Below are positions 7,144 to 54,767 of a stretch of 64,000 nt of DNA, piece after piece. Numbering within the stretch: position 1 is the first letter of the stretch; every line of letters begins with the position of its first letter. The DNA is from Actinoplanes siamensis (GTDB lineage Bacteria; Actinomycetota; Actinomycetes; Mycobacteriales; Micromonosporaceae), in NCBI RefSeq assembly GCF_016862395.1, contig NZ_BOMW01000015.1, forward strand, positions 1-64,000, read 5' to 3'. Below the pieces are notes generated by a model. The model ran no database searches, had not been told where the DNA came from, and was given only the letters and a program-made list of their open reading frames with translations. Position numbers and translations under genes: made by a program.

Positions 7144-7222
7144 CCGCGGTCGGGCGCCAACGCGCTCATCCTGGGCGAGGTCGTCTCAGTCATCCGGGGC
7201 CTTCGACCGCGGCCGGGCGCCA
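7091..7222 (+). repeat. 63-bp tandem duplication of the lexA 3' end
   Basis: The block beginning GCGCCAACGC at 7091 recurs at 7154, and its first bases recur again at 7217, an exact 63-bp spacing. The first copy contains the end of lexA and its stop codon; the second is non-coding with a few substitutions. Slipped-strand or unequal duplication is the simple explanation. Confidence 0.85.
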
Positions 7223-7282
7223 GGCGACCAGGTCGCGGCTGTCGTGAGCGTCGGGCCGTGACCGCCGGACTTCACCGACAGG

Positions 7283-7378
7283 CCTGCGTCGGGGCGCGCT
7301 TCGTCAGTTGCCCGCGTGGGGGCGCACTTCGTCAGTCGTCTGCGTCGGGGCGCGCATCGTCAGTCGCCTGCGCCGGGC
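7283..7378 (+). repeat. 28-bp tandem repeat, three copies plus a partial fourth
   Basis: Copies start at 7283, 7311 and 7339, with a partial copy at 7367. The shared core is GCGTCGGGGCGCGC then TCGTCAGTCG. There are no spacers between copies, so this is a direct tandem repeat and not a CRISPR array. It sits in the ~390-bp non-coding interval between lexA and the methyltransferase, which otherwise shows no gene. Confidence 0.85.
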
Positions 7379-7533
7379 TGGTTTCTCCAACGGCCTCCGC
7401 AGGCCTGTTTCGCCGAGGGCGGCTTCGCGGTCGGTTCGCCGCTGTCTCGGCCTGCTCCACCATCTCCCGGTCCTGGTGAGGGACGGGACCGGCTTGGACG
7501 GCGCGGCCGGCTGCCGGGTGGGCGGCGAGGTCA

Positions 7534-23700: not shown

Positions 23701-25576
23701 CCGTGCGGTGTTCGCCGGGTTCGGCCCGGCCCGGCAGGCCGACCTGCGGGACCGCTTCGCCGACTACCGCCGGGCCGCCGCCTTCCTGCGGGACATCCGC
23801 GACGACAGCAGCGGCCAGGAGGAGTGGTTCGCCTGCCTGGACGCCCGCGACGTGCTGACCTTCCACGGCCTCGACGCGGCCGTCGAGTTCTGCGCCGACC
23901 AGCACCTGGACGGCGCCGACGTGCCCCCGGTGATCGAACGGGCGCTCCTGCACGGCTGGGTGGACGCGGTGGTCCGGGCCGACAACCGGCTGCGGCCCTG
24001 GCGCGCCGAGGACCGGGACCGTCTGGTCGCCGAGTTCCGCGCGGCCGACGAGAAGCTCGCCCCGGTGGCGGCCCGGGAGATCATCGCGGCGGTCGAGGCC
24101 CGCCGGCCTCCGGCCGACAGCACGGCCGCGGGTCTGCTGCGGCGGGAGGCGATGAAGGCCGACCGGCATCTGCCGGTACGGGAACTGATCGGCCGCGCCC
24201 GGGACGTCGTGCTCGACCTGCGCCCGTGCGTGCTGGCGTCGCCGCTGACGGTGAGCCAGTCGCTGCCCCCGGACATCGGCTTCGACGTGGTGATCTTCGA
24301 CGAGGCGTCCCAGATCACCCCGGCCGACGCGATCAACTGCATCTATCGCGGCCAGTCCCTGATCGTCGCGGGCGACGACCGGCAACTGCCGCCGACCTCG
24401 TTCTTCGACAGGGGGCTCAGCACCGAGCCGGCCGACACCGAGGTGCTCGACTACCAGTCGGTGCTGGAGCTGGCCAAGGCCTGCGGCGCGTTCCCCGGGA
24501 TGGGCCTGACCTGGCACTACCGCAGCCGGCACCAGGCGCTCGTGGCCTTCGCCAACGACGCGTTCTACCAGGGACGGCTCAGCACGTTCCCGGCTCCGGG
24601 GACCGGCGGCCCGGACACCGGCGTCGAGTTGTTCCCGGTGGCCGGCGTCTACCGGCGCAGCACCAGCCGGGACAACCCGGTCGAGGCGGAGCGGGTCGCC
24701 GAGCGGATCGTGCACCACTTCACCACCCGGCCCGACCAGACGCTCGGCGTGGTGACGTTCTCGGTGGCGCAGGCGGAGGCGATCGAACGCGCCCTGCAGA
24801 CGGTCGCGGCCGGACACCCGGCGCTGGAGCGGGCGGTCGCCGACGACCGGCTGCACGGTTTCTTCATCAAGAGCCTGGAGTCGGTGCAGGGCGACGAGCG
24901 GGACGTGATGATCTTCTCGATCGGCTACGGGTACGACGACACCGGCCGGATCAGCGCGAACTTCGGCGCGCTGAACCGGCCCAACGGGTGGCGGCGGCTG
25001 AACGTGGCGATCACCCGGGCCCGGCACCGGGTGGAGATCGTCACCTCGATCCTGTCCCGGGACGTCCCGGAGTCGGAGAACGAGGGTGTCCGGCAGCTGG
25101 CGGCGTACCTGGATCACGTGGAGCACGGCGCCGGCGACACCAGCCCCGACCTGGCCGAGGGGCACAGCGAGTTCGTGGACTCGGTGCTGGAGACGGTCCG
25201 GTCCTGGGGATATCCGGCGCGGACCGGCCTGGGGACCGCGGGCGGGCGGGTGGACATCGCGATCCGGCACCCCGACGACCCGGCCGGGGACTACCTGCTC
25301 GGGATCCGCTGCGACGGGCCCGGGTACCGCGACTGCCCGGCCGCCCGGGACCGCGACCGGCTGACCGACCAGGTGCTGGTGGACCTGGGTTGGCGGCTGC
25401 ACCGGGCGTGGGCGCTGGCCTGGTACCGCGACCGGGCGGGTGAGGAAGCCCGGCTGCGGGCGGCCCTGGAACGCGCGGCGGCGGCCCGGCCCGGCCGTAC
25501 CGGCGCGGTGGAGGGACGCGCCGCCGCGGCGAGCCTGCGGGCCCGGCTGCTGCGCCACGAGCCGGCCCGCAACTAG
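20741..25576 (+). CDS. Giant DUF4011-type superfamily 1 helicase with C-terminal Vsr-like nuclease domain
   Basis: A 1611-residue protein. The DUF4011-like N-terminal domain (~10-230) opens with RAWRESLIDLGDHNRLINF. An SF1 DNA2/NAM7-type helicase follows, with Walker A DGPPGTGKSQT (Lys317), Walker B VVIFDEASQITPADA (Asp1187-Glu1188) and late motifs VQGDERDVMIFSIGYG and RLNVAITRARHRVEIV. A long helical insert separates motifs I and II. The C-terminal ~110 residues match the MTES_1575-type REase fold (VDIAIRHP, GIRCDGPGY, ARDRDRL, DLGWRLHRAWAL). The position I recall as catalytic Glu in xECDG is Arg1523. The DUF3320-like tail present in the paralog is absent. Related proteins occur in defence or DNA-repair contexts; role here unknown. 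Confidence 0.85.
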   Translation: MGPRRENGRPEPRPARAGVQAALRAWRESLIDLGDHNRLINFAGGNADLVEITAPEPDQIVTTLTRGARAVLTGPGGQPGDRIFRTELPERSLGPALRRMMRRDQQEHLDRGVFALHLALGLLHWRPVQDDDEPAAGTAGYASPLLLLPAELVQGELGELPELRLRDEEPVVNPALALRLRRAGIAVPELAPGAEINVSRFWADFTDTVARRHGWHIERAVILTCLTFHKEAIYRDLQENEERILAHPVVRALATTDQRRQTDQFKFTPIRPDEVDRLAPPEDVPLVLDADSSQRACVAAALAGQSFVMDGPPGTGKSQTVANMIGALLHAGRRVLFVSEKVAALDVVRNRLAEAGLDRYILELHGQQAGRREVATLLAAAVDEAPEAPGEGPAVDRGALRERRESLTSFAYAMNESRRPLGASLHEIIGRCAELSEAPAAPVPTIDPATLARDVVRRVREATDQLSRSWRAMVDGDGLLWRDVITRDPLDPALSRAEKALAALARSARIADTAAKAFGLLRPDDAAALARLAEHAGRRPDQVNDSWLTADDLAPVREAADRRSADLAAAAQAAAAVRHRAGVPWTALPSAADLPVVPVLDTLVAPVQLETLTAVDADELARSFAKAAEQLDRHRRAVDRVTAKLGLPRATTIRDISRVAAVAELGTRPHKPERFWFGPGALAGVQTGSSALRRALEVLVGAEIQARPYFSEAILTQPVEELAERFATVHRGFGKLRAAYRRDKRQVAGFVLPTAHLGDAIDRLSTAVAWKRARQELAAAEHAYATALGRYWQGRGTDFAALDDAISVAIAALASAPPAGVESVLAYVCAPAPDPEPIQVVTEARDALLRWQATLRPAPYPAARPELVSGPVEDAIAWLKEHVTVLQATAETVRAFDAATGRTLDYAETVRLAELREAAARAEAAVGGRTPELPESGAPSLADAVAWAATAREFAGGPLTPAQVAALRDLRPIIGLAERAQEWTEASRAVFAGFGPARQADLRDRFADYRRAAAFLRDIRDDSSGQEEWFACLDARDVLTFHGLDAAVEFCADQHLDGADVPPVIERALLHGWVDAVVRADNRLRPWRAEDRDRLVAEFRAADEKLAPVAAREIIAAVEARRPPADSTAAGLLRREAMKADRHLPVRELIGRARDVVLDLRPCVLASPLTVSQSLPPDIGFDVVIFDEASQITPADAINCIYRGQSLIVAGDDRQLPPTSFFDRGLSTEPADTEVLDYQSVLELAKACGAFPGMGLTWHYRSRHQALVAFANDAFYQGRLSTFPAPGTGGPDTGVELFPVAGVYRRSTSRDNPVEAERVAERIVHHFTTRPDQTLGVVTFSVAQAEAIERALQTVAAGHPALERAVADDRLHGFFIKSLESVQGDERDVMIFSIGYGYDDTGRISANFGALNRPNGWRRLNVAITRARHRVEIVTSILSRDVPESENEGVRQLAAYLDHVEHGAGDTSPDLAEGHSEFVDSVLETVRSWGYPARTGLGTAGGRVDIAIRHPDDPAGDYLLGIRCDGPGYRDCPAARDRDRLTDQVLVDLGWRLHRAWALAWYRDRAGEEARLRAALERAAAARPGRTGAVEGRAAAASLRARLLRHEPARN

Positions 25577-31014: not shown

Positions 31015-31427
31015 ATGGAAACGATGGAACTGGGGCGCACCGGTACGCAGGTCAGCAAGCTGGCGCTCGGCGCCATGCAGATGGGCAACGCCACCAGTGA
31101 GGCCGACTCGATCCGCATCCTGGACCGGTACTGCGAATCCTCAAGGGCATCTACGACGACCCGGCCAAGCGGTCCGGGCACTGGGCCATGGAGAACTACG
31201 AGGGTCCGGACATGGACGCGCGCCTCGCCGTGCTGCGGGAGATCGCCCATGAGGCCGGCTCCACGCCCAACCGTACGGTGCTGGCCTGGCTGCTGCACCA
31301 GACCGGCCCCTCGGTGGTGCCGCTGATCGGTCCGAGGACCCCGCAGCAGCTAGACGACCTGCTCCCGGCCCTCGACATCAAGCTCGACGCCGGCCAGCTC
31401 GCCCGGCTGGACGCCGCCGGCGCGTAG
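31015..31427 (+). pseudogene. Aldo/keto reductase remnant with internal deletion and frameshift
   Basis: The first frame gives METMELGRTGTQVSKLALGA and reaches RILDRYCE, a normal aldo/keto reductase N-terminus of about 40 residues. At ~31134 the homology jumps frame to RILKGIYDDPAKRSGHW, ending NRTVLAWLLHQTGPSVVPLIG and LDAAGA-stop at 31427, the C-terminal ~95 residues. About 180-200 central residues, including the catalytic Tyr/Lys region, are missing. So it cannot make a working NADPH-dependent oxidoreductase, although its MerR-type promoter is intact. The last 78 bp overlap, antisense, the end of the GGDEF-EAL gene. Confidence 0.85.
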
Positions 31428-33653
31428 GCCCACCTCCACCGAGGCACGGGGCCCGATGGAGGCGAACTCCAGGACGCCGTCCGCGTCGACCGGGTGCGAG
31501 AGCAGGTAGCCCTGCGCGAACTCGCAGCCAAGGCGGGACAGCACCTGGAGGTCGGCGGCGTTGTCGACGCCCTCGGCGACGGTCACCATGCCGAGGGCGT
31601 GCGCCATTTTGACCATGGCGTCCGCCAGCGAGGTACGGGCCTGGTCCCGGTGGATGCCGGCGACGAACGCACGGTCGATCTTCACGACGTCCCAGCCGTG
31701 ATCGGCCACCCGGGCCATCGACGAGTACCCGGTGCCGAAGTCGTCCACGGCGATCTTCACTCCGGCCCGGCGCAGCGGCCCGAGAGCGTTCTCGACGGTC
31801 TCCGGCTCGGCCATGCCGGTCTCGGTCAGCTCCAGGGTCAGCATGTCCGGCGGAGTGCCGTTGCGGTCCAGGGCGGCCAGCACCAGCCCGGCGGTGGTCG
31901 CGTCGAGCTGGCGCGGGGACAGGTTGACAGCGACCGGGATCCACCGGCCGCTCCGCTCGTACCAGCCGCGCTGCTCGGTCAGGGACTGCTCCAGCACCAC
32001 CCGGAACACCTGCACGATCGTGCCGGCCGCCTCGGCGATCGGCACGAACACCACGGGCGGCAGCACCCCGTCGGTCGGATGCCGCCAGCGCACCAGCGCC
32101 TCGACCGAGTTCAGCCGTCCGTCGTCGACCCGGAACACCGGCTGGTAGACGCAGTACAGCTCGCCCCGGGCCAGCGCGCGCCGCAGGTCGGCGTCCAGCC
32201 GCAGCCGTTGCGCCGCCTCCGCGCGGATCTCCGCGTCGAACCGCACCACCCGCCCCCGGCCGGCCGCCTTGGCCTGGTACATCGCCGTGTCCGCGTCCTG
32301 CACCAGGGCGTCCGGATCGGCCTCCCGGTCGTCGGTGGTGCGCAGGCCGATCGACAGCGAGGCGAAGAACTCGGTGCCGTCGGCTAGCCGCATCGGCCGC
32401 CCGAGCTCGCCGGCGACCCGCTCGGCGATCTCCACGGCCTGTTCCTCGGTGGTCTCCGGCATCAGGATGACGAACTCGTCCCCGCCCAGCCGGCACACCA
32501 CATCGCCGTCCCGGACGGAGGCCCGCAACCGGGTGCCGATCTCCGTGAGCAGTTGGTCGCCGGCGTCGTGCCCGAGGCTGTCGTTGACGTCCTTGAAGTG
32601 GTCCAGGTCGCAGAAGAGCAGGCCGACCCGGGCGTCCGGGCCGGGCGGCATCGAGCTGAGCGCCACGGCCAGGCGGTCCATCAGCAGGCTGCGGTTGACC
32701 AGCCCGGTCAGCGGGTCGTGGCCGGCCCGCCAGGCCAGCTCGTGGATCGGCCCGGCCAGCCGGAACGCGACCAGCGCCATGGACATCGCCGAGCCGAGGA
32801 CCAGCGGGGTGTCCGACCGCGGCTCCCAGATCAGATGCACGCAGGGCAGCAGAAGGGCGGCGCCGAACAGGATCAGCGCCCGGGTCAGGGTCAGCGCGTT
32901 CACCGCGGAGCGGCGCGGGTTGGTGGCGACCATCGACGGGTGCAGGGCGGCCGTGCCGAGCAGGATCGGCATCGCCATCCAGCCCAGATCGATGAGACCA
33001 CCCTCCCGGTACGTCCCGGCCAGCCCCTGATGCGTGTAGAGCGCGTCGGAGACGAACCACGCCACCAGCCCGGCCAGCAGCCAGCGCACGCCCGGGGTGC
33101 GCAGCTCGACGCCGAGCGCCAGGGCGAGCGCGCAGTACACCACGATCATCGTGTTGACCGGCGCGGACACCGCGAAGAACCGGGCCGGCAGGCTGCCGCC
33201 CACGGTGACCGTCGGCTCCACCACCAGGATCCAGACGAGGCTGGCCAGCGGCGAAAGGATCACCGCGGCGTCGACGAACGCGGTCCGGCCGGCCCGGGAG
33301 GCGAGCATCGCCGTACCGGCCGCGATGGTCAGGTGCCCGATCAGGTAGAGCACGTCGGCGCCCGACGGAAACGCCGGATCGGCGCCACCGGCGGTGTGCC
33401 ACGCGAAGACCACGTCGCCGGCCGCGGAGAACGCCAGGCCGCCGCCGATCACCAGCCAGCCGCCGGTGCGCTGCGGCACGTGCCCGCGCAGCCCCATCCA
33501 GGTGGCGATCGGCGCGGTGCTGTTCACCAGCACGTAGATCCACCGGGTCTCGGCGGTGAACGGCACGGCGACGTAGACGACCGCGAGCGCGGACGTCAGC
33601 GTCAGGTAGATCCACCACAGGTGGCGCATGCCGCCCGGGGAACGACCCATCAT
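31350..33653 (-). CDS. Membrane GGDEF-EAL protein (c-di-GMP synthesis/hydrolysis)
   Basis: A 767-residue protein. About nine N-terminal helices (residues ~10-310) form a membrane sensor module. The GGDEF domain (~320-480) keeps the active motif RLGGDEF and the DHFKDVNDSLGHDAGD site. The EAL domain (~490-740) keeps SVEALVRWRH, LELTETGM, AVDDFGTGYSS, KIDRAFV and AEGVD, so both cyclase and phosphodiesterase activities are possible. The start is ATG 33653, with ATG 33629 as an alternative. The final ~25 residues (GLRAGGVQPGELAG) are encoded antisense to the reductase remnant, so the C-terminus may have been altered by the rearrangement there. Confidence 0.92.
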   Translation of the reverse strand: MMGRSPGGMRHLWWIYLTLTSALAVVYVAVPFTAETRWIYVLVNSTAPIATWMGLRGHVPQRTGGWLVIGGGLAFSAAGDVVFAWHTAGGADPAFPSGADVLYLIGHLTIAAGTAMLASRAGRTAFVDAAVILSPLASLVWILVVEPTVTVGGSLPARFFAVSAPVNTMIVVYCALALALGVELRTPGVRWLLAGLVAWFVSDALYTHQGLAGTYREGGLIDLGWMAMPILLGTAALHPSMVATNPRRSAVNALTLTRALILFGAALLLPCVHLIWEPRSDTPLVLGSAMSMALVAFRLAGPIHELAWRAGHDPLTGLVNRSLLMDRLAVALSSMPPGPDARVGLLFCDLDHFKDVNDSLGHDAGDQLLTEIGTRLRASVRDGDVVCRLGGDEFVILMPETTEEQAVEIAERVAGELGRPMRLADGTEFFASLSIGLRTTDDREADPDALVQDADTAMYQAKAAGRGRVVRFDAEIRAEAAQRLRLDADLRRALARGELYCVYQPVFRVDDGRLNSVEALVRWRHPTDGVLPPVVFVPIAEAAGTIVQVFRVVLEQSLTEQRGWYERSGRWIPVAVNLSPRQLDATTAGLVLAALDRNGTPPDMLTLELTETGMAEPETVENALGPLRRAGVKIAVDDFGTGYSSMARVADHGWDVVKIDRAFVAGIHRDQARTSLADAMVKMAHALGMVTVAEGVDNAADLQVLSRLGCEFAQGYLLSHPVDADGVLEFASIGPRASVEVGLRAGGVQPGELAGVELDVEGREQVV

Positions 33654-34545: not shown

Positions 34546-35184
34546 TCAGAGGTACGAATCGGACGCGGCGTACAAGCCCAGCGCAATCATGAGGAAGCCG
34601 GAGACCCCGGTCAGCACGTGCGCGACCCGGGAGGTCATCAGACGCCGGGACGCCGCGCCGACGCCGACCAGCAGCGCCTGCCAACCCGCCGACGCGGCGA
34701 AGATGCCGGCGACGAAGAACGCGGCGGCGGTCCAGGACATCGTGCCGCCGATACCGACGGCCGCCGACGCGAAATAGCCGATGGTCAGCGGGTTGGCCGC
34801 GGTCAGGCCGAGCAGCAGGAGGAAGGCGCGGGTCGCCGTCACCGGCATGCCGCGCCCCCCGGTGGCGTCGGCGGACCCGGCCGCGCGGGCGCGGCGCAGG
34901 GCGAGCAACTCGCGCACGCCGAGAAAGACCAGGACGGCGCCCGCGACGATGCGCAGCGGCGGCAGAAACGGTCCGACGGCGGCGGCAACGCCACCGCCGA
35001 CGGACACCGCCAGAGCCGCGAATATGAGGTCGGTCGTCGCCACACCGAGTGCCGCGGCGATGCCGACCCGCACTCCTCGCGCCTGCCCGGTTCTGATCAC
35101 CAACAGGCCAATGGCTCCCAAAGGAACGGCGACGGCCAATCCGGCGAGCGAACCCGCGACGACATAACCCATTGCGGCAGACAT
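34546..35184 (-). CDS. LysE-type translocator downstream of the radical-SAM operon
   Basis: A 212-residue membrane protein with six helices. The N-terminal GSLAGLAVAVPLGAIGLLVIRTGQARG matches the LysE/RhtB signature (G-x-x-x-P-G-P variant with PLGAI), followed by AALGVATTDLIFAALAV and a LTAANPLTIGYFA segment in the second half. The family exports amino acids or small zwitterionic compounds. ATG 35184 is chosen because GGGGGG precedes it. It lies 58 bp after the third radical-SAM gene on the same strand, so it may export the pathway product; that is inference. Confidence 0.85.
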   Translation of the reverse strand: MSAAMGYVVAGSLAGLAVAVPLGAIGLLVIRTGQARGVRVGIAAALGVATTDLIFAALAVSVGGGVAAAVGPFLPPLRIVAGAVLVFLGVRELLALRRARAAGSADATGGRGMPVTATRAFLLLLGLTAANPLTIGYFASAAVGIGGTMSWTAAAFFVAGIFAASAGWQALLVGVGAASRRLMTSRVAHVLTGVSGFLMIALGLYAASDSYL

Positions 35185-35242: not shown

Positions 35243-36553
35243 CTATTCCATAAGTTCCGATATCCCGAAGCGGACCTCGCCGTCATCGGCCGGACTCAGA
35301 TCCTCCTCCGCGTAGAAACGTTCGTAGACGTTCGTCGAATAAAGCTGCCCAGCACGGGTCAGCTCGTAACGGTCGCCCACCAGCCGCAGCCAATCCTTAT
35401 CGACCAGCTCCTGAATCTCCGTAGGGAACACCGTTACCATATCGATACCGAAGCGGCGACGGAAGTCCGAGACGGAGACCTCGCACATCTTGAGGCCGCG
35501 GATCATGACCCGCCGCATCTCCTGCTCCTTGGTGAGCACCGTGCCGATGTCAATGGGAATACGCCCGTTGTCCACCATCTCGTAGTAACGGTTCAGCGGA
35601 TGGACGTTCACGAAGAGCCGATCATGAATGACGCTCTTCGACGAGACACCAAAGCCAATCATCGGCCAGGTGCGCCAGTAGTACTCGAGAAAACGCGACA
35701 GGTCACGGCAGCGGTCCGGGTGGAAATAGCCCGTCGAACTGCGCCGGCGGAAGCCCGCGGCCTCCATCGCGTCCATCGCGTACTCGTACATCCGGGTCTC
35801 GTCGGCCGGCGACGGCAACGTCATCTTGCCCGAGCTGATCAGGCTGTGGAACGCCGTCTTGGGCCAGATCTCCAGGCCGTAGCTCGTGATGCATGCCGGC
35901 TCCAGCTCGATCGCCCGGTCGACGCTGCGCTTCCAGTCGTCCAGGGACTGATCCGGGAGCGGGAAAATCAGGTCGATGTTGGTGTGCCGGAATCCGCCCT
36001 CGACCACCATGCGGTACGCGTTCTCGGCGGTCGCGACGTCGTGCGACCGGTTGCAGATCTTGAGCAGCCGGTCGTCGAACGCCTGCACGCCGACGTTCAC
36101 CCGGTTGAACCCGCCGGCGACCAGCGTCTCGACCTTGTGGAGGTCGACCGTCGACGGGTCGAACTCGAGGGCGATCTCGCACCCCTCGTTGAACTCGAAC
36201 TCCTCGCGGCAGACGTCGAGGAGGTGCACGAGCTGCTCGCCGGTGAGGATGCCCGGCGTGCCCCCGCCGAAGTAGACCGCGTCGATGGAGAAGGCGGGAA
36301 ACGTGCGGTTGGCGACGAACGTCCGGATCTCCTTCTCCAGCGCCGCGACGTACCGCGCGAAGTGCGACTCGTTCTTGTTGATGTACACCGTGTAGTCGCA
36401 GAACCCGCACTTCTTGATGCAGAAGGGGACGTGCAGGTAGAGGACCGCGCTCTCCTTGCGGAAGTACTCATCGTGGTCCACGTGCCGGTACTTGAACGGG
36501 TAGGTGTGGATGTTGCGGCGGGTGATCTGACTGTCGGGCTCGGCCTGGTACAT
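35243..36553 (-). CDS. HemW-like radical SAM protein (coproporphyrinogen dehydrogenase family)
   Basis: A 436-residue enzyme with the radical-SAM cluster motif C45-x3-C49-x2-C52 (VPFCIKKCGFCDY), the aromatic residue before the third Cys and the GGGTPGIL SAM site, followed by LEFDPSTVD and GVQAFDDRLLKICNR, characteristic of the HemN/HemW family. The C-terminal winged-helix-like region (residues ~340-420) is present. Family members are heme chaperones, coproporphyrinogen oxidases or radical methylases; its position as third in a run of three radical-SAM genes argues for a dedicated pathway role rather than housekeeping HemW. It ends 58 bp before the LysE gene. Confidence 0.88.
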   Translation of the reverse strand: MYQAEPDSQITRRNIHTYPFKYRHVDHDEYFRKESAVLYLHVPFCIKKCGFCDYTVYINKNESHFARYVAALEKEIRTFVANRTFPAFSIDAVYFGGGTPGILTGEQLVHLLDVCREEFEFNEGCEIALEFDPSTVDLHKVETLVAGGFNRVNVGVQAFDDRLLKICNRSHDVATAENAYRMVVEGGFRHTNIDLIFPLPDQSLDDWKRSVDRAIELEPACITSYGLEIWPKTAFHSLISSGKMTLPSPADETRMYEYAMDAMEAAGFRRRSSTGYFHPDRCRDLSRFLEYYWRTWPMIGFGVSSKSVIHDRLFVNVHPLNRYYEMVDNGRIPIDIGTVLTKEQEMRRVMIRGLKMCEVSVSDFRRRFGIDMVTVFPTEIQELVDKDWLRLVGDRYELTRAGQLYSTNVYERFYAEEDLSPADDGEVRFGISELME

Positions 36554-36574
36554 CGGGCTACCTCCGGTGAAACG

Positions 36575-38089
36575 TCAGCAGACAAGCTCGAACGGCTGCA
36601 CGGCGTCGGCGGCCGGGCGGGCGTCGGTACGACCGTTCGGCGTCACCGGCCTGCCGCAGGACACGAACAGGTCGTCGAAGACGTTCCGGTCGCGGGCCAG
36701 GTAGGGCTCCCCCGCCCGCGCCACGAGCCGGACCACCTCCTCGGCCAGCAGCAGTTGGTAGCGGCACGACTCCTCGTTGAGCACGTTGAGGTCGCCGGAG
36801 GCCACGTAGTTCTCCTGCCGGCAGCCACCGCCACACAGGTACCGGGCCCAGCACTGCCCGCACACCGGGTGCTCGTCCACGGTCCGCCGCCACTCCGGGT
36901 GCGGCCGGGTCAGCCCGGACTGACCGGTGCCCACGTCGAACGACTCCTCCCCGACCAGGCGGTGACACGGGCTGATGGTCCCGTCCGGCGAATGCGTGTA
37001 GTACGTCCGCCCGCCCGAGCAGAACGACAGGGCGGTCAGGCCCTCGAGCATCATCTGAGCGGTGCGTTCGTACTCCAGGACTCCGGCAAAGCGATTTTCC
37101 GGGGTGAAGAGCGAGGGGTACGCGTGCAGGAAATCGCGGAACTGCTCGATCATTCCCGGGCGCAGGAAGTGGTTCACGTACGCGATCTCCTGAGGGCCGC
37201 TCAGCACCTTGTCGCCCAGCTTCAGCGTGAGCGCGACGCTCTTGCCCTGCTGATTGACGGGGTACACGCCCGGGTAGATCTGGAAGAAGTCGAACAGGTT
37301 GAGCGACCACAATTCCCGGACGCTGTCGACCAGCGTGGGCTGTTCGGTCGCGATCGTCATCCGGGCGACCAGAATGATGTTGTCATCAGCCGCGTGGCGC
37401 AGGGTCCAGAGATTCTTCATGATCCGGTCGTACGAGCCGCGCCCGTTCTTGGCCGGCCGGTTACGGTCCTGGACCTCCCGGGGGCCGTCCAGCGACACCG
37501 ACACGATGAAGCGGTGCTTCGCGAACAGTTCCGTGATCCCGGCGGGCATCAGGGTGAGATTCGTGGAGATCCGGTAGACGAATTGCAGATCCCGCTCCGC
37601 CGCGACCCGCTCACTACGTTCACAGATCGCTTTGATCAGCGGGAAGTTCGCCAGCGGCTCGCCACCGAAGAATTCGAAGCGCACCCGCCGGCCCGGCGCG
37701 AGGTTCTCCTCGATGAACGTGAAGATCCAGCCCACCGAGTGCTCGCCCATGGCCTCCTTCATCCGGCCGTAGTCGCCGCCCTCGGCGAAGCAGTACGTGC
37801 ACGCCAAGTTGCAGATGTTCGTCAGGTTGACGTTGACGGCGAAGTCCGAGCCGTCGGCGAGGTCGCTCCGCTGCAGCGTGTCCCGGTTGCTGCCGGCGTC
37901 CTCGGTCACGGCGAGCGACTCCCACGCGGCGCGTTCCTCGACACTCAGGTGCTCGACACCTCGGCGCAGCCGCTCGCCCACCTCCCTCGGCATGCGGGCG
38001 ACCCGGTGGGTACCGGTGATCATGACCGCGGACTCGCGCTCGTCCAGATCGGCGACGAAGTAATCGACTCCGCTACGCACGACCGGCAC
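36575..38089 (-). CDS. Radical SAM/SPASM-type peptide-maturase-like enzyme
   Basis: About 504 residues from GTG 38089 (GTG 38080 is an alternative). An N-terminal ~65-residue module (VDYFVADLDERESAVMITG) may be a winged-helix peptide-recognition element. The radical-SAM core has C93-x3-C97-x2-C100 (NICNLACTYCFAEGG), FEFFGGEPL and VSVSLDGP. The C-terminal region carries a SPASM-like set: FCSGG, SPCHRL, then CGQCWARYLCGGGC and SCRYQ, which would bind auxiliary 4Fe-4S clusters. SPASM enzymes commonly crosslink or modify ribosomal peptides. It overlaps the upstream AmrS-like gene by 17 bp and lies 21 bp before the HemW-like gene. Confidence 0.9.
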   Translation of the reverse strand: MPVVRSGVDYFVADLDERESAVMITGTHRVARMPREVGERLRRGVEHLSVEERAAWESLAVTEDAGSNRDTLQRSDLADGSDFAVNVNLTNICNLACTYCFAEGGDYGRMKEAMGEHSVGWIFTFIEENLAPGRRVRFEFFGGEPLANFPLIKAICERSERVAAERDLQFVYRISTNLTLMPAGITELFAKHRFIVSVSLDGPREVQDRNRPAKNGRGSYDRIMKNLWTLRHAADDNIILVARMTIATEQPTLVDSVRELWSLNLFDFFQIYPGVYPVNQQGKSVALTLKLGDKVLSGPQEIAYVNHFLRPGMIEQFRDFLHAYPSLFTPENRFAGVLEYERTAQMMLEGLTALSFCSGGRTYYTHSPDGTISPCHRLVGEESFDVGTGQSGLTRPHPEWRRTVDEHPVCGQCWARYLCGGGCRQENYVASGDLNVLNEESCRYQLLLAEEVVRLVARAGEPYLARDRNVFDDLFVSCGRPVTPNGRTDARPAADAVQPFELVC

Positions 38090-39527
38090 CCCGCAATCGC
38101 AGCGCCGCCTCCGGAACCGCGTCGCTGGAGTGCTTGATCTGCAGGACCGTGTCCGTCGGGAAGTGCGCCCGGTCGTACACCTCGTACATGCTGACGTGCA
38201 CGCCCGGCGGGGTCTGGATCGTGACACCGCGGTCGTCGGTCGCGGACTTGCAGGCGATGAAGCGGTACTGCGCGCCGGGCATGACCGGGACCCGCTTGAT
38301 CTCGCGGCCGTTGCTGGCGCCACCCAGCACCCGCACGATCACCTCGTGCGTGGCGGGCGCCTCGCTGCTCACCTCGATGTGCACGGCCTTGACGTCACCG
38401 CGCCACTCGTGGTCGGTCCCCGACAGATCGCTGTCCGGCACCTCGACGATGTTCAGACCGGCCGTCTGCGGCTTGGGCAGCAGCTGGAACGCGAGGGGGC
38501 GGTCGCAGGTACGGCAGTTCGACTCCTCGGTGAGCCCGACGGGACGCGCGATGAGGCCGTACCGCTCGACCACCACCGTGCCGCAGTAGGGGCAGAACGA
38601 GTTCGTCGCCTCGTTGTCGTACACGTTGCCGAGGTAGCAGTAGCGGATCCCCTCGGCAAGCGCGACCTCGCGGGCCCGCTCCAGCCGCTCCACCGGGGTC
38701 CGGTCGACCTGCGTGTACTTGTAGTCCGGGTGGAACCGGACGAAGTGCACCGGCACGTCCGGGCTCAGCTCGTCGAGAACCCAGCGGGACAGCTTGCGGG
38801 CGTCCGCTTCGCTGTCGTTGGCGTCGGTGACCAGCAGGCTGGAGACCTCGACGTGCTTGCCCCGGTCGAACACGTACTTGGTGGCATCCAGCACCGGCTG
38901 TAGCTGGCCCTTCGTGACGCGCTTGTAGAACGTGGGGTCCATCGACTTGAGCGAGATGCTGAAGATGTCGATGACGTCGCACAGCTCCTTGGCGCCCTCG
39001 AGGGAGATGTAGAACGCCGACTTGAACAGGTTCACCAGCCCGTGCTGCCGAGCCAGGCGCGCGGTGTCCAGGACGAACTCGTGCCAGACCACCGGATCGT
39101 TGTACGTCCACGAGATGACCTGGATGCCGCGTTCGAGCGCGCTCTCCACCACCTGCTCGGGGGTGTAGTAGTGCACCGAGCGGTCTTCCACGTACCGGGC
39201 CTGCGAGGTCTGCCAGTTGTGGCAGTAGTCGCAGTTCATCATGCAGCCGATGTTGCCCATCGACAGGATGCGGGCGCCCGGGGCGTAGTGGTAGCAGGCT
39301 TCGGTCTCGATCGTTTCCTCGGTCATCGCCACGGACTTGCCGTAGTTCAGGGTGACCAGCTCGCCGCCGCGGTTCGCGCGCACCCGGCAGAACCCCACCG
39401 AGCCGGGCCGGATGACGCAGTTACGCGGTGAGAGATGGCACTGAACGGTGCCGTCGGGCCGGGAGCTGTAGAGCACCGCGGGGTGGGTGTCCTGCTGCCA
39501 GTCCCATTGCTTCTGATCTTTGGGCAC
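38073..39527 (-). CDS. AmrS-like (AmmeMemoRadiSam-type) radical SAM protein with C-terminal extension
   Basis: A 484-residue protein from GTG 39527, preceded by AGAGAGG. The core matches the radical-SAM member of the AmmeMemoRadiSam group: HLSPRNCVIRPGSVGFCRVR, SMGNIGCMMNCDYCHNWQ (C95, C99, C102), SWTYNDPVVWHEF and a zinc-ribbon-like CPYC...CRTC pair. Family members are usually ~340-360 residues; the last ~120 residues here (from HEWRGDVKAVHIEV) form an extra beta-rich domain. The customary AMMECR1 and Memo partners are absent from the window. It is the first enzyme of the three-gene radical-SAM run, 19 bp after the candidate peptide ORF. Confidence 0.88.
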   Translation of the reverse strand: MPKDQKQWDWQQDTHPAVLYSSRPDGTVQCHLSPRNCVIRPGSVGFCRVRANRGGELVTLNYGKSVAMTEETIETEACYHYAPGARILSMGNIGCMMNCDYCHNWQTSQARYVEDRSVHYYTPEQVVESALERGIQVISWTYNDPVVWHEFVLDTARLARQHGLVNLFKSAFYISLEGAKELCDVIDIFSISLKSMDPTFYKRVTKGQLQPVLDATKYVFDRGKHVEVSSLLVTDANDSEADARKLSRWVLDELSPDVPVHFVRFHPDYKYTQVDRTPVERLERAREVALAEGIRYCYLGNVYDNEATNSFCPYCGTVVVERYGLIARPVGLTEESNCRTCDRPLAFQLLPKPQTAGLNIVEVPDSDLSGTDHEWRGDVKAVHIEVSSEAPATHEVIVRVLGGASNGREIKRVPVMPGAQYRFIACKSATDDRGVTIQTPPGVHVSMYEVYDRAHFPTDTVLQIKHSSDAVPEAALRLRGAGRA

Positions 39528-39546
39528 GGAAAGCCTCTCTGTCCGA

Positions 39547-39687
39547 TTACGACCCGTTCGCTACCGGCAATTTCAGAATGCTTTTGAGGAAGACCTCGCA
39601 CACAAATGCCGGCGCATGCGCCGACATTCGATCCGTGCAAATGTCACGATGCCCGGCCAGGCGATCGATGATCTTAATGTCGGCCAT
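39547..39687 (-). CDS. 46-residue ORF heading the radical-SAM operon; candidate precursor peptide
   Basis: Minus-strand ATG 39687 to TAA 39547-39549. The N-terminal part reads MADIKIIDRLAGHRDICTDR, the middle MSAHAPAFVCEVF and the end LKSILKLPVANGS. It has two Cys (17 and 30), a hydrophobic middle and a small polar Asn-Gly-Ser end. A near-consensus promoter lies just upstream, and the first radical-SAM gene starts 19 bp after the stop with its own ribosome-binding site. GTG 39717 could extend it by 10 residues. Codon third positions are less GC-rich (about 70%) than the neighbours. I infer a substrate or leader peptide for the three enzymes; no homolog is recognised, so a regulatory peptide is possible. 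Confidence 0.55.
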   Translation of the reverse strand: MADIKIIDRLAGHRDICTDRMSAHAPAFVCEVFLKSILKLPVANGS

Positions 39688-39700
39688 CGACTTGTCGCAC

Positions 39701-39730
39701 AAGGTATCGACCGTCACTGCCGACTGTCAA
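39701..39730 (-). promoter_or_regulatory. Sigma-70-type promoter of the peptide/radical-SAM operon
   Basis: On the minus strand a perfect -35 TTGACA (39730-39725) is followed after 18 bp by TACCTT (39706-39701, TANNNT). The ATG of the 46-residue ORF is 13 nt beyond the -10, leaving a leader of only ~5-7 nt. It is among the best promoter matches in the window and sets the operon start. Confidence 0.65.
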
Positions 39731-40657
39731 GCATGGCATATACACCTGTGAATGATCAAAAGCGCCACGGGGCTATTTCCGATACTCATGGCATCCGCGC
39801 GAATAGCGATCTTGATTCGTTGATCACGCCCCGACGCGATCTTCGCCGGATCCCGCCCGGGACCACGATGGAACGGTGGCCGCGCGCCGCGGCGACGCAC
39901 GCCCATGCCGCGCGGCCGGAATTCCGGCTGTTCAGCGCCCCCTGGAGGCACTACGGCGGGCCCGTGCCGACCCGGCATCGCGGGTGGCGACGACTTCCGC
40001 CCGGTTGGTGCCGGATCGGACCGGGAGTGACACGATGGGCGTCAACCCTGGACCGGTTGGCCGGCGGCCGCTTTCCGGGCGCTCCGCATCGTCGCGATAC
40101 CAGCGGAACCACGGCTGTCGTAGCGCGCGGATACCGATGATTACGGTGACGATACGGCGACGGGAACAATCCTTTTCTCTGCCGACGCTGATGTCACGAG
40201 GTGAATATTCGGTCATACGGGGTCGGTGGCGTCCATGGGTTGCCGAGCAGCGCGTTTCGTAGACCGGTAGCTGCGCGTAGGCTGTTCTCGCGAATGGTCG
40301 GGATGCAGCCGCGGACGGCCAGGAAGGTCCGGGCGTCGCTGGGTGTGTGGAAGCCGCCGCGGAGGCCGGTCCTGGATGTGACCGTCCGGACGGCCGGTTC
40401 GGCGACGTCGGTCGGGAACGCGATGACGGGGGAGTCGGTGGCGAGGCCGTTGACGGCTGCGGGGCATCCTGGACTCATCCCGGATCGAGCGCTGGAAGTC
40501 CGAGTTTTGCGGCTTGGAGAATGGCTGTGACCGTAGTTCTCCCGGAACTCCGCGGCAGGCCGGTGGTCGAGAGCCGGCGCCACGAATGCCGGGCCGGCTC
40601 GGAATGCCGGGCCGGCTCAGCCGCGCAGGCGGGCATTGCCGCTGAGCACAGGCGTAC
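39731..40657. other. ~930-bp region without a supportable gene, partly lower GC
   Basis: Upstream of the peptide promoter the sequence becomes visibly more AT-rich (for example 39730-39840 and 40130-40215) than the rest of the window. Overlapping frames exist on both strands at 40194-40583, but neither shows codon bias, a ribosome-binding site or a family match. A short direct repeat GGAATGCCGGGCCGGCTC-like unit lies near 40585-40618. It may be decayed mobile or transferred DNA; I see no transposase, tRNA or terminal repeats. Confidence 0.4.
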
Positions 40658-41425
40658 TCATGCGAGCGGGAATCCGCCCCAGGCGGCCGTGAGCAGGGCC
40701 GGGAGAACCTCCGCGGCGGGGCCCGGGAGGTTCACCGTGGCGATCGGGTCCAGCGGGGTGGGCCGGGGATTCACCTGCAAGACCGCGGCGCCCGAGCGGG
40801 CGGCCAGCCGGGGGATCTCGGCGGCCGGGTAGACCAGGCCGGACGTGCCGACGGTCAGCAGCACGTCGCAGGCCGACGCGGCGCGGGCGGCGGTCTCCAG
40901 GGCCGGCTCGGGCAGCTGCTCGCCGAACCAGACGACGCCCGGGCGGATCAGGCCGTCGCAGTGGGCGCAGCGCGGGGGCGGGACGCGGCGGCCCTCGCCG
41001 GACTGGTCCGGTGTGGACGGCAGCGGCGCGGGGCGGGCGCAGGTCGCGCAGCGCGGGGCGAACAGGCTGCCGTGCAGGTGGACCGGGGACGCCGAACCGG
41101 CCCGCTCGTGCAGATCGTCGACGTTCTGGGTGATCACCGTCAGCTGCGGGACGAGGGTGGCAAGGCGGGCCACGGCCAGGTGACCCTGATTCGGGTGGAC
41201 CCGTTGGACGATCCGGCGGCGCCACTCGTACCAGCCCCAGACCAGGTCCGGATCCTCCCGGAAGGCCTGCGCGGTGGCCAGCGACTGCGCGTCGAAGCGG
41301 GACCACAGGCCGGTCAGCGCGTCCCGGAACGTCGGCACGCCGCTCTCCGCGGAGATCCCGGCGCCGGTGAAGACGACCACGTGGCGGGACCGTTCCAGCA
41401 GTTTCGCGGCGTCGTTCAGGTCCAT
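40658..41425 (-). CDS. Sir2-family NAD-dependent protein deacylase
   Basis: A 255-residue cytoplasmic sirtuin (CobB class III-like). NAD-binding VVVFTGAGISAESGVPTFRD, the catalytic VITQNVDDLHERAG and HLHGS (catalytic His), GVVWFGEQLP and TVGTSGLVYPAAEIP are all present. The zinc site is two Cys pairs, CATC and CAHC. It removes acetyl/acyl groups from lysines, often of acyl-CoA synthetases; one such gene is at 61563, but no direct link is shown. ATG 41425 is preceded by GAGGAG, so the longer upstream frame is rejected. Confidence 0.95.
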   Translation of the reverse strand: MDLNDAAKLLERSRHVVVFTGAGISAESGVPTFRDALTGLWSRFDAQSLATAQAFREDPDLVWGWYEWRRRIVQRVHPNQGHLAVARLATLVPQLTVITQNVDDLHERAGSASPVHLHGSLFAPRCATCARPAPLPSTPDQSGEGRRVPPPRCAHCDGLIRPGVVWFGEQLPEPALETAARAASACDVLLTVGTSGLVYPAAEIPRLAARSGAAVLQVNPRPTPLDPIATVNLPGPAAEVLPALLTAAWGGFPLA

Positions 41426-43360: not shown

Positions 43361-45040
43361 TCAGACGGCCGGGACCAGCGGCCGGGCCGGCAGCAGTGGG
43401 ACCGCCTCGGGTGGCACCGGCCGGTTCAGGTGGTACCCCTGCAGCAGGTCGACACCGGCCCGGGCCAGGTCGGCCGCGGTCGGCTCGTCCTCGACGCCCT
43501 CCGCGACCACCTTCATGCCCAGCGACTTCGCGATCGCGATGACCGAGTCGATGATCGTCGCGTGGGCCGGCGAGTCGTGCATCCGCACCACGAACGACCG
43601 GTCGATCTTGAGTTCGTCGATCGGCAGGCGGGGCAGCAGGCCGAGTGAGGTGTACCCGGTGCCGAAGTCGTCGATGGCCACCCGGACGCCGCGCAGGCGC
43701 AGCTCGGCGAGCTGGGCGGCGACCTCGTCCGGGTGGGTGAGCACCGCGGTCTCGGTGATCTCGACGGTGAGCAGGTCGGCCGGGACGCGCTCCAACCGCA
43801 GCACGGCCAGGATGGTCGGGACCGCGCGGTCCTGGGCCAGGTACGCGGCCGGCAGGTTCACCGACACCGGCACGTGATGACCGGCCCGCCGCCAGAGCGC
43901 GGCCTGGTGCAACGCCTCGGCCAGCACCCAGTCGGTCAACTCCAGGATCACGTCGGAGCGCTCCGCGTCGGGCAGGAAGAGGCCCGGTGGGAGCAGGCCG
44001 CGCTGCGGATGCTGCCAGCGGACCAGCGCCTCGACGCCGTTCATCGCGCGGCTGGTCGCGTCGTGCAGCGGCTGGTAGTGCAGCCGCAGGTGCCCGCTGC
44101 GCAGGCCGCCGCGCAGCTCGGTGAGCTGGCGCAGGTCGACCCGCTGGGTGGTGTCCAGGCCGGCCGTCCACTCGACCACGCCGGTGCGCTCCTGCTTGGC
44201 GCGGCGCATCGCGGTGGCGGCCCGGCGCTGCAGGACCTGGATGTCGTGGTGGTCGGCCGGGGTGACGCCGATGCTGACCTCGACGCCGATCGGCAGCCCG
44301 TCGATCTGGTGCGGGCCGCGGATGCCGGCCGCGATGTGCCGGCCCATGCTCTGCAGGGTGTGCCCGGCCGGCAGGTCGGAGAGCAGCACCAGGAACTGGT
44401 CGCCGTCCAGGCGGGCGGCCAGGTCGCCGGCGCCGCGGGCGGCCCGCAGCGCGACAGCGACCCGGTGCAGCAGCGTGTCCGCGCCGTGGTGGCCGAGCAC
44501 GTCGTTGGCGTCCTGGAATCGGTCCAGGCCCAGGTGCAGCACGGCGGCCAGGCGGCCGTCGTCCAGCCGGCGCTGGCCCTCGGCCGTGATCATGCTGCGG
44601 TTCGGCAGGCCGGTGAGCGGGTCGGTGCGCGACAGCTTGGCGTACCGGCCGGCCATCGCGGTCAGCAGGTCCATCACCGGCGCGATCCCGTAGCGGCCGT
44701 CCGGCCAGGTGACCAGCACCGGCTCCGCGCGTTCGCGGCCTGGGCGGGCCAGGGCGGCCTCGGCCGCCACGTCGATGTCCGCGTCGGCGGGCAGCGTGAG
44801 CGAGCCCGCCGGTGAGAGGTCGCCGACCGTGAGGGGCAGGACCAGCCGGCCGGCCGTGGCCCGGTCCAGCGAGCCCCGGCTGATCAGGCGGGGGCCGGCG
44901 GCGGTCGCCACGATCACGCCGGGGACGTGCTCGTCGCGGCTCAGCGCCGTCTCCACCTCGCTGACCGGGGTGTCGGCCGGCCGCGGAGTGGTCGGGATGG
45001 CCAGCTCACCGAGCTTGCCGGGCAGGCGCGGCGCGCTCAC
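43361..45040 (-). CDS. EAL-domain c-di-GMP phosphodiesterase with degenerate GGDEF domain
   Basis: A 559-residue cytoplasmic protein from GTG 45040, which overlaps the upstream PAS gene stop by 4 bp. A short N-terminal region with CBS-like features (LVLPLTVGDLSPAG) precedes a GGDEF domain (~170-320) whose signature is ARLDGDQF instead of RxGGDEF, so cyclase activity is unlikely. The EAL domain (~330-550) keeps GVEALVRWQHP, VEITETAVL, AIDDFGTGYTSLG, KIDRSFV and AEGVED, consistent with an active phosphodiesterase. The degenerate GGDEF may act as a GTP sensor. It is probably controlled by the coupled PAS protein. Confidence 0.92.
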   Translation of the reverse strand: MSAPRLPGKLGELAIPTTPRPADTPVSEVETALSRDEHVPGVIVATAAGPRLISRGSLDRATAGRLVLPLTVGDLSPAGSLTLPADADIDVAAEAALARPGRERAEPVLVTWPDGRYGIAPVMDLLTAMAGRYAKLSRTDPLTGLPNRSMITAEGQRRLDDGRLAAVLHLGLDRFQDANDVLGHHGADTLLHRVAVALRAARGAGDLAARLDGDQFLVLLSDLPAGHTLQSMGRHIAAGIRGPHQIDGLPIGVEVSIGVTPADHHDIQVLQRRAATAMRRAKQERTGVVEWTAGLDTTQRVDLRQLTELRGGLRSGHLRLHYQPLHDATSRAMNGVEALVRWQHPQRGLLPPGLFLPDAERSDVILELTDWVLAEALHQAALWRRAGHHVPVSVNLPAAYLAQDRAVPTILAVLRLERVPADLLTVEITETAVLTHPDEVAAQLAELRLRGVRVAIDDFGTGYTSLGLLPRLPIDELKIDRSFVVRMHDSPAHATIIDSVIAIAKSLGMKVVAEGVEDEPTAADLARAGVDLLQGYHLNRPVPPEAVPLLPARPLVPAV

Positions 45041-46473
45041 GCCCCGCCGCCCAGCCGATAGCAGGCGCCGTCGACCAGGAACCGGTCGCCGTCGGGGCGC
45101 GGGCGCAGGCGGACCCAGAGCCGGCCACCGCCGGCCGCGGCGCACTCGGCGTCGGCGGGCCGTCCGGCGCGGACGGTCGCCCAGAGCCCGGCGACCCGTA
45201 CCCGGTCGACCGGGTCGACCAGGGCGGTCAGCGCGGGGGCCGGCTCGTCGCCGGCCGCGGTGAACGACAGGCTGGCGACCCGGGCGGCCAGGTCCTCCAG
45301 GTCGCGGCGGCAGGCGTGCTCGCGGGTCCGGTCCAGCAGCATGCCGTCCCAGACGGTGGCGCCTCCGGGCTCGCGGTGCGGGCGCGCGACGCCGTGCAGC
45401 CAGCGCCGTTCACCGTCGCGCCGGATGATCATGCCCTGCCACTCCCAGGGCTCCAGGGTGCCCGCCGACCGCCGGACGGAGTCCAGGTAGGACGGCCGGT
45501 CCTCCTCGGCGATCCGCTCGATGATCTCGCCGGAGGCGGCGACCACCTGGGCCGGTTCGACGCCGTACAGGTCGCGGCAGGCGTCCGAGACGAAGGTGAA
45601 ACCGGACGTGCCGTCCGGCTCGACACGGAACTGGTAGAGCATCCCGGGCGCGTTGTTGACAGTGGTGCGGAACCGTTCCTCGCCGGCGGCCAGCGCGGCC
45701 TCGCTGCGGCGGCGTTCGGTGTCGTCGATGGCGATCGTGCACAGGCCGTAGACCGAGCCGTCCGGGTCGGTCAGCGGGACGCGGGTGACCACGTACTCCC
45801 GGACGTCGTCGCCGAACGGGAGCAGCTCGAGCACGGTCTTGGCGGCGCCGGTCCCGGTCACGGCTATGTCGTGCGCCCGGCTGCCGGCGGCGATCGCGGC
45901 CGGCATCACGTCCTCCTCGCCGCGGCCGACCATGTCGCCGGCGCTGACCTGGAAGACCCGCTCGTACTCGCCGTTGACGAACAGGTAGCGGCCGTCCAGG
46001 TCCTTGGCCGAGATCACCGCGGAGGTGTGCTGCAGGATCGCGGTGACCAGCGTGTTGCTGCGCTGCAGCTCCTGGCGGGCCTGGTGCCACTCGGTCTGGT
46101 CGGAGATGAACGCGCAGAAGCCGTCCGGGCCCAGCGAGTCCAGGTTCATCGTGATGCTCAGCTCGGAGCCGTCCCGGTGCACGGCCGGCACCTCGAAGCG
46201 GTGCGTGATGTCCGGGCCGTCACCCATGGCCACCCGGCGGGCGAACCCGGCGTTGTGCCCGGAGCGCAGCGGGGCGGGGACGATGGTGTCGGCCAGGGAA
46301 CGGCCGATCACCTCGTCCCGGGGCCAGCCGAACAGCCGCTCGGCGGCCGGGTTCCAGTCCTGGATCAGGCCGTCACGGTCGACCTGGACATACGCCAGCG
46401 AGCTCGCGTCGACGGCCCGGAACCGGCCGTCGGCGGCCACCGGCTGCTCGGTGATCTGAGAGGCGCTGAACAC
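45037..46473 (-). CDS. Multi-PAS sensor protein coupled to the EAL protein
   Basis: A 478-residue soluble protein with three PAS domains: ~25-135 (YVQVDRDGLIQDWNPAAERLFGW, DEVIGRSLADTIVP), ~145-260 (ISAKDLDGRYLFVNGEYERVF) and ~275-395 (YQFRVEPDGTSGFTFVSDACRD, PYLDSVRR-like). A C-terminal ~80-residue region without a known output domain follows. It lacks a kinase, cyclase or phosphodiesterase domain, so it likely relays a signal by contact to the EAL protein whose start overlaps its stop. Ligands of the PAS domains cannot be inferred. Confidence 0.88.
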   Translation of the reverse strand: MFSASQITEQPVAADGRFRAVDASSLAYVQVDRDGLIQDWNPAAERLFGWPRDEVIGRSLADTIVPAPLRSGHNAGFARRVAMGDGPDITHRFEVPAVHRDGSELSITMNLDSLGPDGFCAFISDQTEWHQARQELQRSNTLVTAILQHTSAVISAKDLDGRYLFVNGEYERVFQVSAGDMVGRGEEDVMPAAIAAGSRAHDIAVTGTGAAKTVLELLPFGDDVREYVVTRVPLTDPDGSVYGLCTIAIDDTERRRSEAALAAGEERFRTTVNNAPGMLYQFRVEPDGTSGFTFVSDACRDLYGVEPAQVVAASGEIIERIAEEDRPSYLDSVRRSAGTLEPWEWQGMIIRRDGERRWLHGVARPHREPGGATVWDGMLLDRTREHACRRDLEDLAARVASLSFTAAGDEPAPALTALVDPVDRVRVAGLWATVRAGRPADAECAAAGGGRLWVRLRPRPDGDRFLVDGACYRLGGGA

Positions 46474-54733: not shown

Positions 54734-54767
54734 AGCAAGGCATCGGTTGCCTTGCTGCAATGGGCTC
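54734..54767 (+). promoter_or_regulatory. Inverted repeat and TGCAAT element before the second DUF4011 helicase
   Basis: Perfect 9-bp arms AGCAAGGCA (54734-54742) and TGCCTTGCT (54748-54756) flank a 5-base loop. GCTGCAAT and GGG follow, and TGCAAT (54756-54761) ends 6 nt before ATG 54768. The upstream flank is CCAGC, as before the first helicase. Arms differ in sequence between the two sites while pairing is kept. Confidence 0.6.

Follow-up and report, generated by a model that had tools for sequence, protein, structure and literature searches.

Radical S-adenosylmethionine (SAM) enzymes do chemically hard reactions, and many of them still await a substrate. Maturase genes and the genes of their precursors are usually neighbours, precursor-recognition elements (RREs) follow a plan of three strands and three helices (b-b-b-a-a-a), and LysE carriers usually export amino acids. 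A review (PMC8172795) places such an RRE in the N-terminal domain of the peptide maturase CteB. Here we compare with these and related systems a locus from Actinoplanes siamensis, found in a stretch of 64,000 nucleotides (contig NZ_BOMW01000015.1, positions 1 to 64,000; hereafter the window), in which an AmrS-like gene, a radical-SAM/SPASM gene and a HemN-superfamily gene that we name HemX (together, the trio) are followed by a gene for a LysE-type exporter, the whole being referred to as the cassette. We put at about one in two the probability that the cassette makes a small metabolite derived from an amino acid or a short peptide and exports it, the reactions themselves being inferred. In agreement with an initial annotation of this DNA, which knew of no described system with such a trio, no description of it was found in the open-licence literature searched.

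A rare cassette of three radical-SAM genes in actinomycetes

The cassette and the promoter-like site before it lie on the minus strand, from 39730 to 34546, as read from the window sequence (Table 1). All three large proteins pass the Pfam cut-off for Radical_SAM (PF04055), and the LysE protein reaches 57.7 bits against PF01810 (cut-off 25.6); the three radical-SAM genes and the LysE gene that the initial annotation had read from the letters are real. The intergenic gaps of 19 bp, -17 bp (or -8 by the alternative SPASM start, this gene beginning with a GTG at either 38089 or 38080) and 21 bp also hold, and the promoter-like sequence and the 46-codon open reading frame (ORF) reported upstream of them are both present where they had been placed.

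Table 1. Features of the cassette and its leader in the window
Feature	Position	Strand	Basis
Promoter-like site TTGACA (39730-39725)-N18-TACCTT (39706-39701)	39701..39730	-	read directly
46-codon ATG ORF, probably not a gene	39547..39687	-	chance-level length, low third-position GC, no homologue in L013 or other loci
AmrS-like radical-SAM enzyme, 484 aa, C-terminal beta-rich extension	38073..39527	-	TIGR04337 match, motif cysteines
Radical-SAM/SPASM enzyme, RRE-type N-terminal domain	36575..38089	-	NCBIfam, Foldseek, cysteine pattern
HemN-superfamily radical-SAM enzyme (HemX), not HemW	35243..36553	-	Radical_SAM and HemN_C above cut-off
LysE-type exporter	about 34546..35184	-	PF01810 above cut-off

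An AmrS-like gene precedes a SPASM gene in the window and in seven other genomes, giving eight loci in total: the window, L013 (Micromonospora antibiotica, the nearest relative), L014 (Streptomyces sp. NRRL F-5727), L015 (Streptoalloteichus hindustanus), L017 (genome G020, congeneric with the window), L028 and L029 (both congeneric with L014) and L036 (from the family to which L015 belongs). Both genes are present in all eight, HemX is intact in five (the window, L013, L017, L028 and L029), and the order AmrS-SPASM-HemX-LysE is kept in four of these, L017 being the fifth. The HemX gene has left traces elsewhere, as L036 keeps its first residues in place after SPASM, a clear N-terminal remnant, and L015 holds probable N- and C-terminal remnants (shuffle fractions 0.028 and 0.0002). 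In L014 the gene has apparently been lost; the HemN-type proteins found in the L014 and L015 genomes are only more distant ones. On quick trees of both AmrS and SPASM, L014 pairs with L029 inside a clade with L028, with SH-like approximate likelihood-ratio support (AmrS, SPASM) of 96 and 85 for the pair and of 88 and 99 for the three-locus clade. Because of the remnants and because L014 is nested in a clade that bears the trio, the trio is probably the ancestral state, as judged from these sequences, and HemX has probably been lost two or three times, the sisters L015 and L036 possibly sharing one loss. The three enzymes thus do co-occur elsewhere, a point that the initial annotation had named as a check. 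The two trees conflict on the point at which the clade of the window joins, and the tree tool warned that G020, having a long branch, is insecurely placed in the AmrS tree.

The unit has recognizable limits. The alignment between L028 and L029 covers the stretch from a ferredoxin gene to LysE and ends there, and no other gene in the flanks was common to at least three loci at the thresholds used (E<=1e-25 and at least 40% identity across half of the ORF, among ORFs of 131-1700 aa whose GC is of the coding type), so that at this sensitivity the cassette has no further conserved partner.

The cassette is rare and scattered among actinomycetes. Scanning 84,980 species genomes for a pattern, an approach that picks up no more than close relatives, returned three relatives. 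In whole-genome searches, whose counts include the query or centre genome and whose samples partly overlap, strong matches were found in 2 of 60 near relatives, with any match at E<=0.001 in 43 of the 60. At E<=1e-40, the phylum sample gave 2 of 396, namely the genome's own protein and one that is 32% identical (G376); at E<=1e-60, matches numbered 2/67 in the genus, 1/397 in the order, 1/394 in the class, 3/295 in the genus of L014, 2/220 in the family of L015 and 1/160 in the genus of L013. Carriage by plasmids or phages was rejected, no match of at least 60% identity having been found in plasmids for SPASM, AmrS or HemX or in phages for AmrS, and the window holds no tRNA that might have served as an insertion site.

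No conserved precursor gene was found near the cassette

The initial annotation had taken the 46-codon ORF to encode the peptide on which the three enzymes act. The window and L013 are 80% identical in a single DNA alignment, 5008 columns long, that opens 2 bp upstream of the AmrS start and closes at the LysE stop; in this comparison the leader region found no match in L013. In 5000 simulated leaders of 200 nt and the same composition, the longest ORF reached at least 46 codons in 18% of runs, or in 8% when only ATG starts were allowed. The third-position GC of the ORF is 0.70, while that of the operon genes is 0.87-0.94, and a short ORF in the L013 leader showed no significant similarity to it, its score being reached by 38% of shuffles. 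Since the leader does not align, the length is one that chance provides, third-position GC is low and no homologue was found in L013 or the other loci, we conclude that the ORF is not the substrate gene; it is probably a chance ORF and no gene at all. Started at the GTG at 39717 the same frame would have 56 codons, a length reached by 5% of the simulated leaders, and this start falls between the -35 and -10 boxes, so transcripts from this promoter would not carry the longer form.

The promoter itself may be real, because L013 has a similar site (TTGACG-N18-TACCGT, at -195/-171 before AmrS) at nearly the same distance as that of the window (-203/-179) and with the same 18-nt spacing, though the two leaders are unalignable. 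A structured RNA leader was also considered and rejected: no Rfam family reached its gathering score anywhere in the window, and the three weak Rfam matches (40536-40661) all lie outside the leader.

Two comparisons covered the surroundings of the eight loci, one of 1263 ORFs (18-1500 aa) drawn from stretches of about 20-25 kb at each locus, the other of 3490 short ORFs of 18-130 aa in wider flanks, taken from overlapping stretches such that some ORFs are counted twice. Neither yielded a conserved precursor linked to the cassette. The first gave 25 cross-locus rows; among them are one pair each of P450s, transporters and regulators, which in no case adjoin the cassette in both loci. In the second, 36 of the 3490 short ORFs matched another locus at E<=1e-3, and three of the 36 matched two or three other loci. 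All three come from L046 and L053 and lie outside the cassette, with no match in the window or L013; judging by their make-up, they are probably shadow frames of common genes. Of the remaining 33, two link the window to a single other locus, at sites distant from the cassette. Matches that do adjoin the cassette in both loci came from the ferredoxin gene (L028 and L029) and from the end of an amino-acid-ligase-type gene (L015 and L036), and further adjoining ones from antisense frames of the ferredoxin gene, the ligase-type gene and LysE. At this sensitivity, there is no conserved precursor near the cassette. Thus, what stands of the proposal of a dedicated pathway is the three-enzyme set, kept as a unit with its exporter, and what is not supported is the small peptide encoded by the leader as its substrate, no conserved small ORF having been found at the homologous loci, the outcome that the annotation itself had named as refuting.

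The predicted model of the SPASM enzyme resembles CteB over its full length

The best NCBIfam matches of the SPASM enzyme are to PapB, in first place, and to nif11 and SCIFF maturases, all below cut-off; one matched family is the 'orphan maturase' model NF040492, and the quinohemoprotein maturase model gives 144 bits (cut-off 453). Its radical-SAM cysteines 103/107/110 (CX3CX2C) and SPASM cysteines 367/385/420/423/429/433/452 are invariant in all eight loci, as are Cys166 and Cys488. The predicted model is of moderate quality (mean pLDDT, the predicted local distance difference test, 63.7) and its details are not reliable. Foldseek placed CteB first (5why, E 1.1e-15), and a VIA alignment to 5wgg took in model residues 14-470 (Z 20.2, 4.8 A over 399 residues), and that to TigE (8vpo, Z 19.9) residues 8-471; an anaerobic sulfatase maturase and ChlB tied on Z and aligned only from residue ~83-91 on. 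Residues 20-84 are predicted to form three strands and three helices in the b-b-b-a-a-a order, with block values of pLDDT of 79-94 across residues 21-70. The N-terminal domain is thus predicted to have an RRE-type fold and aligns over the N-terminus of CteB, yet no sequence family matches there, and 16% of its positions (residues 11-84) are invariant, against 51% in the radical-SAM core and 62% in the SPASM part. A C-terminal segment, DLFVSCGRP (residues 483-491 in the 514-residue reading from 38119), which includes Cys488, is invariant in five aligned sequences. Two viperin matches of this protein in PADLOC, of 42 and 32 bits, cover part of the radical-SAM domain only.

The AmrS-like enzyme and HemX differ from housekeeping AmrS and HemW

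The AmrS-like protein scores 307.1 bits against TIGR04337 (AmrS, cut-off 220), and its radical-SAM cysteines 95/99/102 are invariant in all eight loci. At C30-x2-S33, the eight cassette proteins read CxxSPxxC, whereas five non-cassette comparison proteins, which are the source of the CxxCPxxC form (the start of a four-cysteine N-terminal motif) in place of any curated rule, read CxxCPxxC. Every cassette protein also carries a C-terminal domain of ~125 residues, with strands at 369-451 in a predicted model of moderate quality (mean pLDDT 59.8, details not reliable) whose structure-search match lists are dominated by the radical-SAM domain. This extra domain was not seen in the five comparison proteins; two of them are annotated amrS and stand beside amrB, and two others look truncated or frameshifted, leaving three good tests of the missing domain. 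Neither AMMECR1 (PF01871) nor Memo (PF01875) was found in the three cassette genomes searched (G000, G020 and G843), each search being positive in 5 of 14 control genomes. A housekeeping AmrS was rejected on these grounds: the CxxS motif, the added domain, and the partners AMMECR1 and Memo that the three searched genomes lack.

HemX has Radical_SAM and HemN_C domains above the Pfam cut-off and falls below the cut-off of all 21 NCBIfam models that it matched, among them HemN, HemW, HutW and STM4012; against the HemW model TIGR00539 it has 192.5 bits (cut-off 205.4). In profile comparison it matches HemN (1olt, 1.8e-51) and the methyltransferase NocN (9p2u, 4.6e-32). The motif HNxxYW, which has a role in heme binding, is missing in all five HemX proteins and present in the HemW-type paralogues of G000, G843, G020, G844 and G845, a sixth fetched protein (L060) having been left out of the comparison as not HemW-like. 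HemX was therefore rejected as a HemW on its score, the missing motif and the separate HemW-type paralogue in five cassette genomes. The labels AmrS-like and HemW-like of the initial annotation are loose ones, the two proteins departing from their housekeeping namesakes in motifs and the AmrS-like one also in its partners and C-terminal domain.

Exporter, ferredoxin and other genes around the cassette

LysE follows HemX in four of the five intact trios: the L013 protein is 78% identical to that of the window, those of L028 and L029 are 34-42% identical along part of the sequence, and all stand in the same place. In both pairs compared (window and L013, L028 and L029), the LysE stop is where cassette homology ends. 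In L028 the cassette starts with an FdxA ferredoxin (161.5 bits, cut-off 125), and the L029 cassette starts with a 79%-identical counterpart.

Two further loci hold genes that hint at amino-acid chemistry. The trio of G020 has a PF10014 2-oxoglutarate dioxygenase gene between SPASM and HemX, the protein's sole NCBIfam match being a weak one to isoleucine dioxygenase (24 bits, cut-off 350), and sits inside a cluster of the nonribosomal peptide synthetase (NRPS) type with condensation-adenylation and carrier proteins, an FkbH domain, CysS, an MshC-like protein and glycosyltransferases. On the same contig (C78, comprising L031, L017 and L032), CysS lies above cut-off and an MshC-like ligase, an FkbH-domain protein, PhyH and luciferase-like oxygenases surround the trio. 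Directly before AmrS, L015 has an intact ATP-grasp gene with an L-amino-acid-ligase C-terminal domain (6999-8345). L036 retains two DNA fragments of this ligase-type gene (about 7837-7990), which on their sequence would reflect decay of a neighbouring gene. Together, LysE, the ligase-type gene and the dioxygenase and NRPS context point to amino-acid or short-peptide chemistry, the latter two contexts occurring in one or two loci each.

Other observations concern the wider surroundings. L029 (14272-14973) and L032 (11514-12230) encode, near the cassette, homologous membrane-type proteins, 57% identical over 197 aa and found in these two loci only, which we take to be YczE-like. On the plus strand of the window, 20741-25576 and 54747-60011 encode two long proteins (1611 and 1754 aa) that combine DUF4011, an AAA helicase and an MTES_1575 nuclease domain and match the PADLOC candidate defence family PDC-S37 and Hhe; the window would thus carry a putative anti-phage helicase-nuclease in duplicate. 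The genes at 31350-33653 and 43361-45145 flank the cassette on the minus strand; the first encodes a GGDEF-EAL cyclic-di-GMP protein and the second looks similar.

Proposed function and alternative explanations

We propose that the cassette produces and exports a metabolite derived from an amino acid or a short peptide. Three different radical-SAM enzymes would act in sequence on one substrate, which would come from outside the cassette, either from cell metabolism or as a peptide or carrier encoded elsewhere. The SPASM step would most likely be a cross-link or an oxidation, the HemX step a carbon-centred modification of the HemN type, e.g., a methyl or methylene transfer, and the AmrS-like step a hydrogen abstraction. 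An FdxA-type ferredoxin, located on the cassette in two relatives, is a plausible electron donor and would feed the enzymes, and the LysE-type carrier would export the amino-acid-like product. The shared substrate and order of action, the nature of the product, the donor and the reaction types are what we infer. A bolder form of the proposal, which we hold only tentatively and think rather doubtful, is a minimal pathway in which three radical-SAM subfamilies, with no other conserved enzyme, build an amino-acid-like molecule on a free or carrier-bound substrate for LysE to export; if it is true, the RRE-like domain and the C-terminal beta-domain of the AmrS-like enzyme would have been re-purposed to hold this substrate instead of a leader peptide.

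Several points weigh against the metabolite proposal. The families nearest to the SPASM enzyme all modify ribosomal peptides or proteins, and its RRE-like fold points away from a free amino acid and towards a peptide. In the stretches examined from G020 and from the three loci that lack an intact HemX, no LysE was found, and neither the ligase nor the dioxygenase is intact in more than one locus. The incomplete agreement of the trees suggests that cassette genes may have been exchanged. In addition, one paper (PMC7159879) reports that a peptide-processing conflict system contains a radical-SAM domain akin to the Memo-AMMECR1 type, a lead that relatives of AmrS may act on peptides.

The strongest rival, less probable than the metabolite but a serious contender, is that the cassette matures a ribosomally synthesized and post-translationally modified peptide whose precursor is encoded elsewhere, the RRE-type domain binding its leader and the other two radical enzymes modifying it further. 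As the predicted SPASM model combines a CteB-like architecture over its full length with the RRE-type N-terminal fold, a peptide substrate from another locus is conceivable; the best-matching families, which are peptide and protein maturases including the orphan maturase, and the lead from PMC7159879 fit as well. Set against this are the usual proximity of maturase and precursor genes, with no conserved cassette-linked small ORF among the 3490 around the eight loci, the poor conservation of the N-terminal domain that would bind the leader, and the amino acids that LysE carriers usually export. No paper on unlinked precursors was found in the open-licence literature searched. We consider it unlikely that the cassette instead matures an intracellular protein or cofactor in the manner of QhpD or PqqE, with LysE as an unrelated neighbour. 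The quinohemoprotein maturase score and the lack of a peptide gene attached to the cassette speak for such a role, but LysE is kept after HemX and marks the end of homology in both pairs, no target protein is conserved nearby, and the sporadic distribution (2/67 genus genomes, own included) fits secondary metabolism better. Least probable by far is the 46-residue peptide as the substrate of the three enzymes: the ORF does sit between the promoter and the first enzyme gene, but the unaligned leader beside an 80%-identical cassette, a length with a chance of 0.18, an L013 counterpart no better than many shuffles and the low third-position GC all tell against it.

If the metabolite proposal is right, the cassette suggests a route to new exported amino-acid-like metabolites. 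Conservation in five loci ties the three subfamilies together, making their function testable in portable operons of four to five genes, and the poorly understood AmrS subfamily gains a partner context outside AmmeMemoRadiSam.

Comparison with known systems

The SPASM enzyme shares with CteB/SCIFF and PapB-type maturases the order of its domains and the complete pattern CX12GX4C...CX2CX5CX3C...C. It differs from them in staying below every maturase cut-off among the best 25 of 67 matched families, and in its surroundings, where two other radical enzymes and LysE are the partners and no precursor gene was found near the cassette. With AmmeMemoRadiSam, in which AmrS goes together with AmrB/AMMECR1/Memo, the cassette has in common an enzyme that exceeds the AmrS cut-off and whose alignment to AmrS proteins covers these in full, whereas AMMECR1 and Memo are missing from the three cassette genomes tested, and CxxS, altered residues near the radical cluster and the extra C-terminal beta-domain distinguish the cassette protein in all eight loci. 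HemX, finally, departs from HemW in the absence of the HNxxYW that HemW-type paralogues carry, and shares with the HemN superfamily at large (HemW, HemN, ChuW/HutW and the NocN-type class C methyltransferases) the combination of Radical-SAM and HemN_C domains, along with its profile matches to HemN and NocN.

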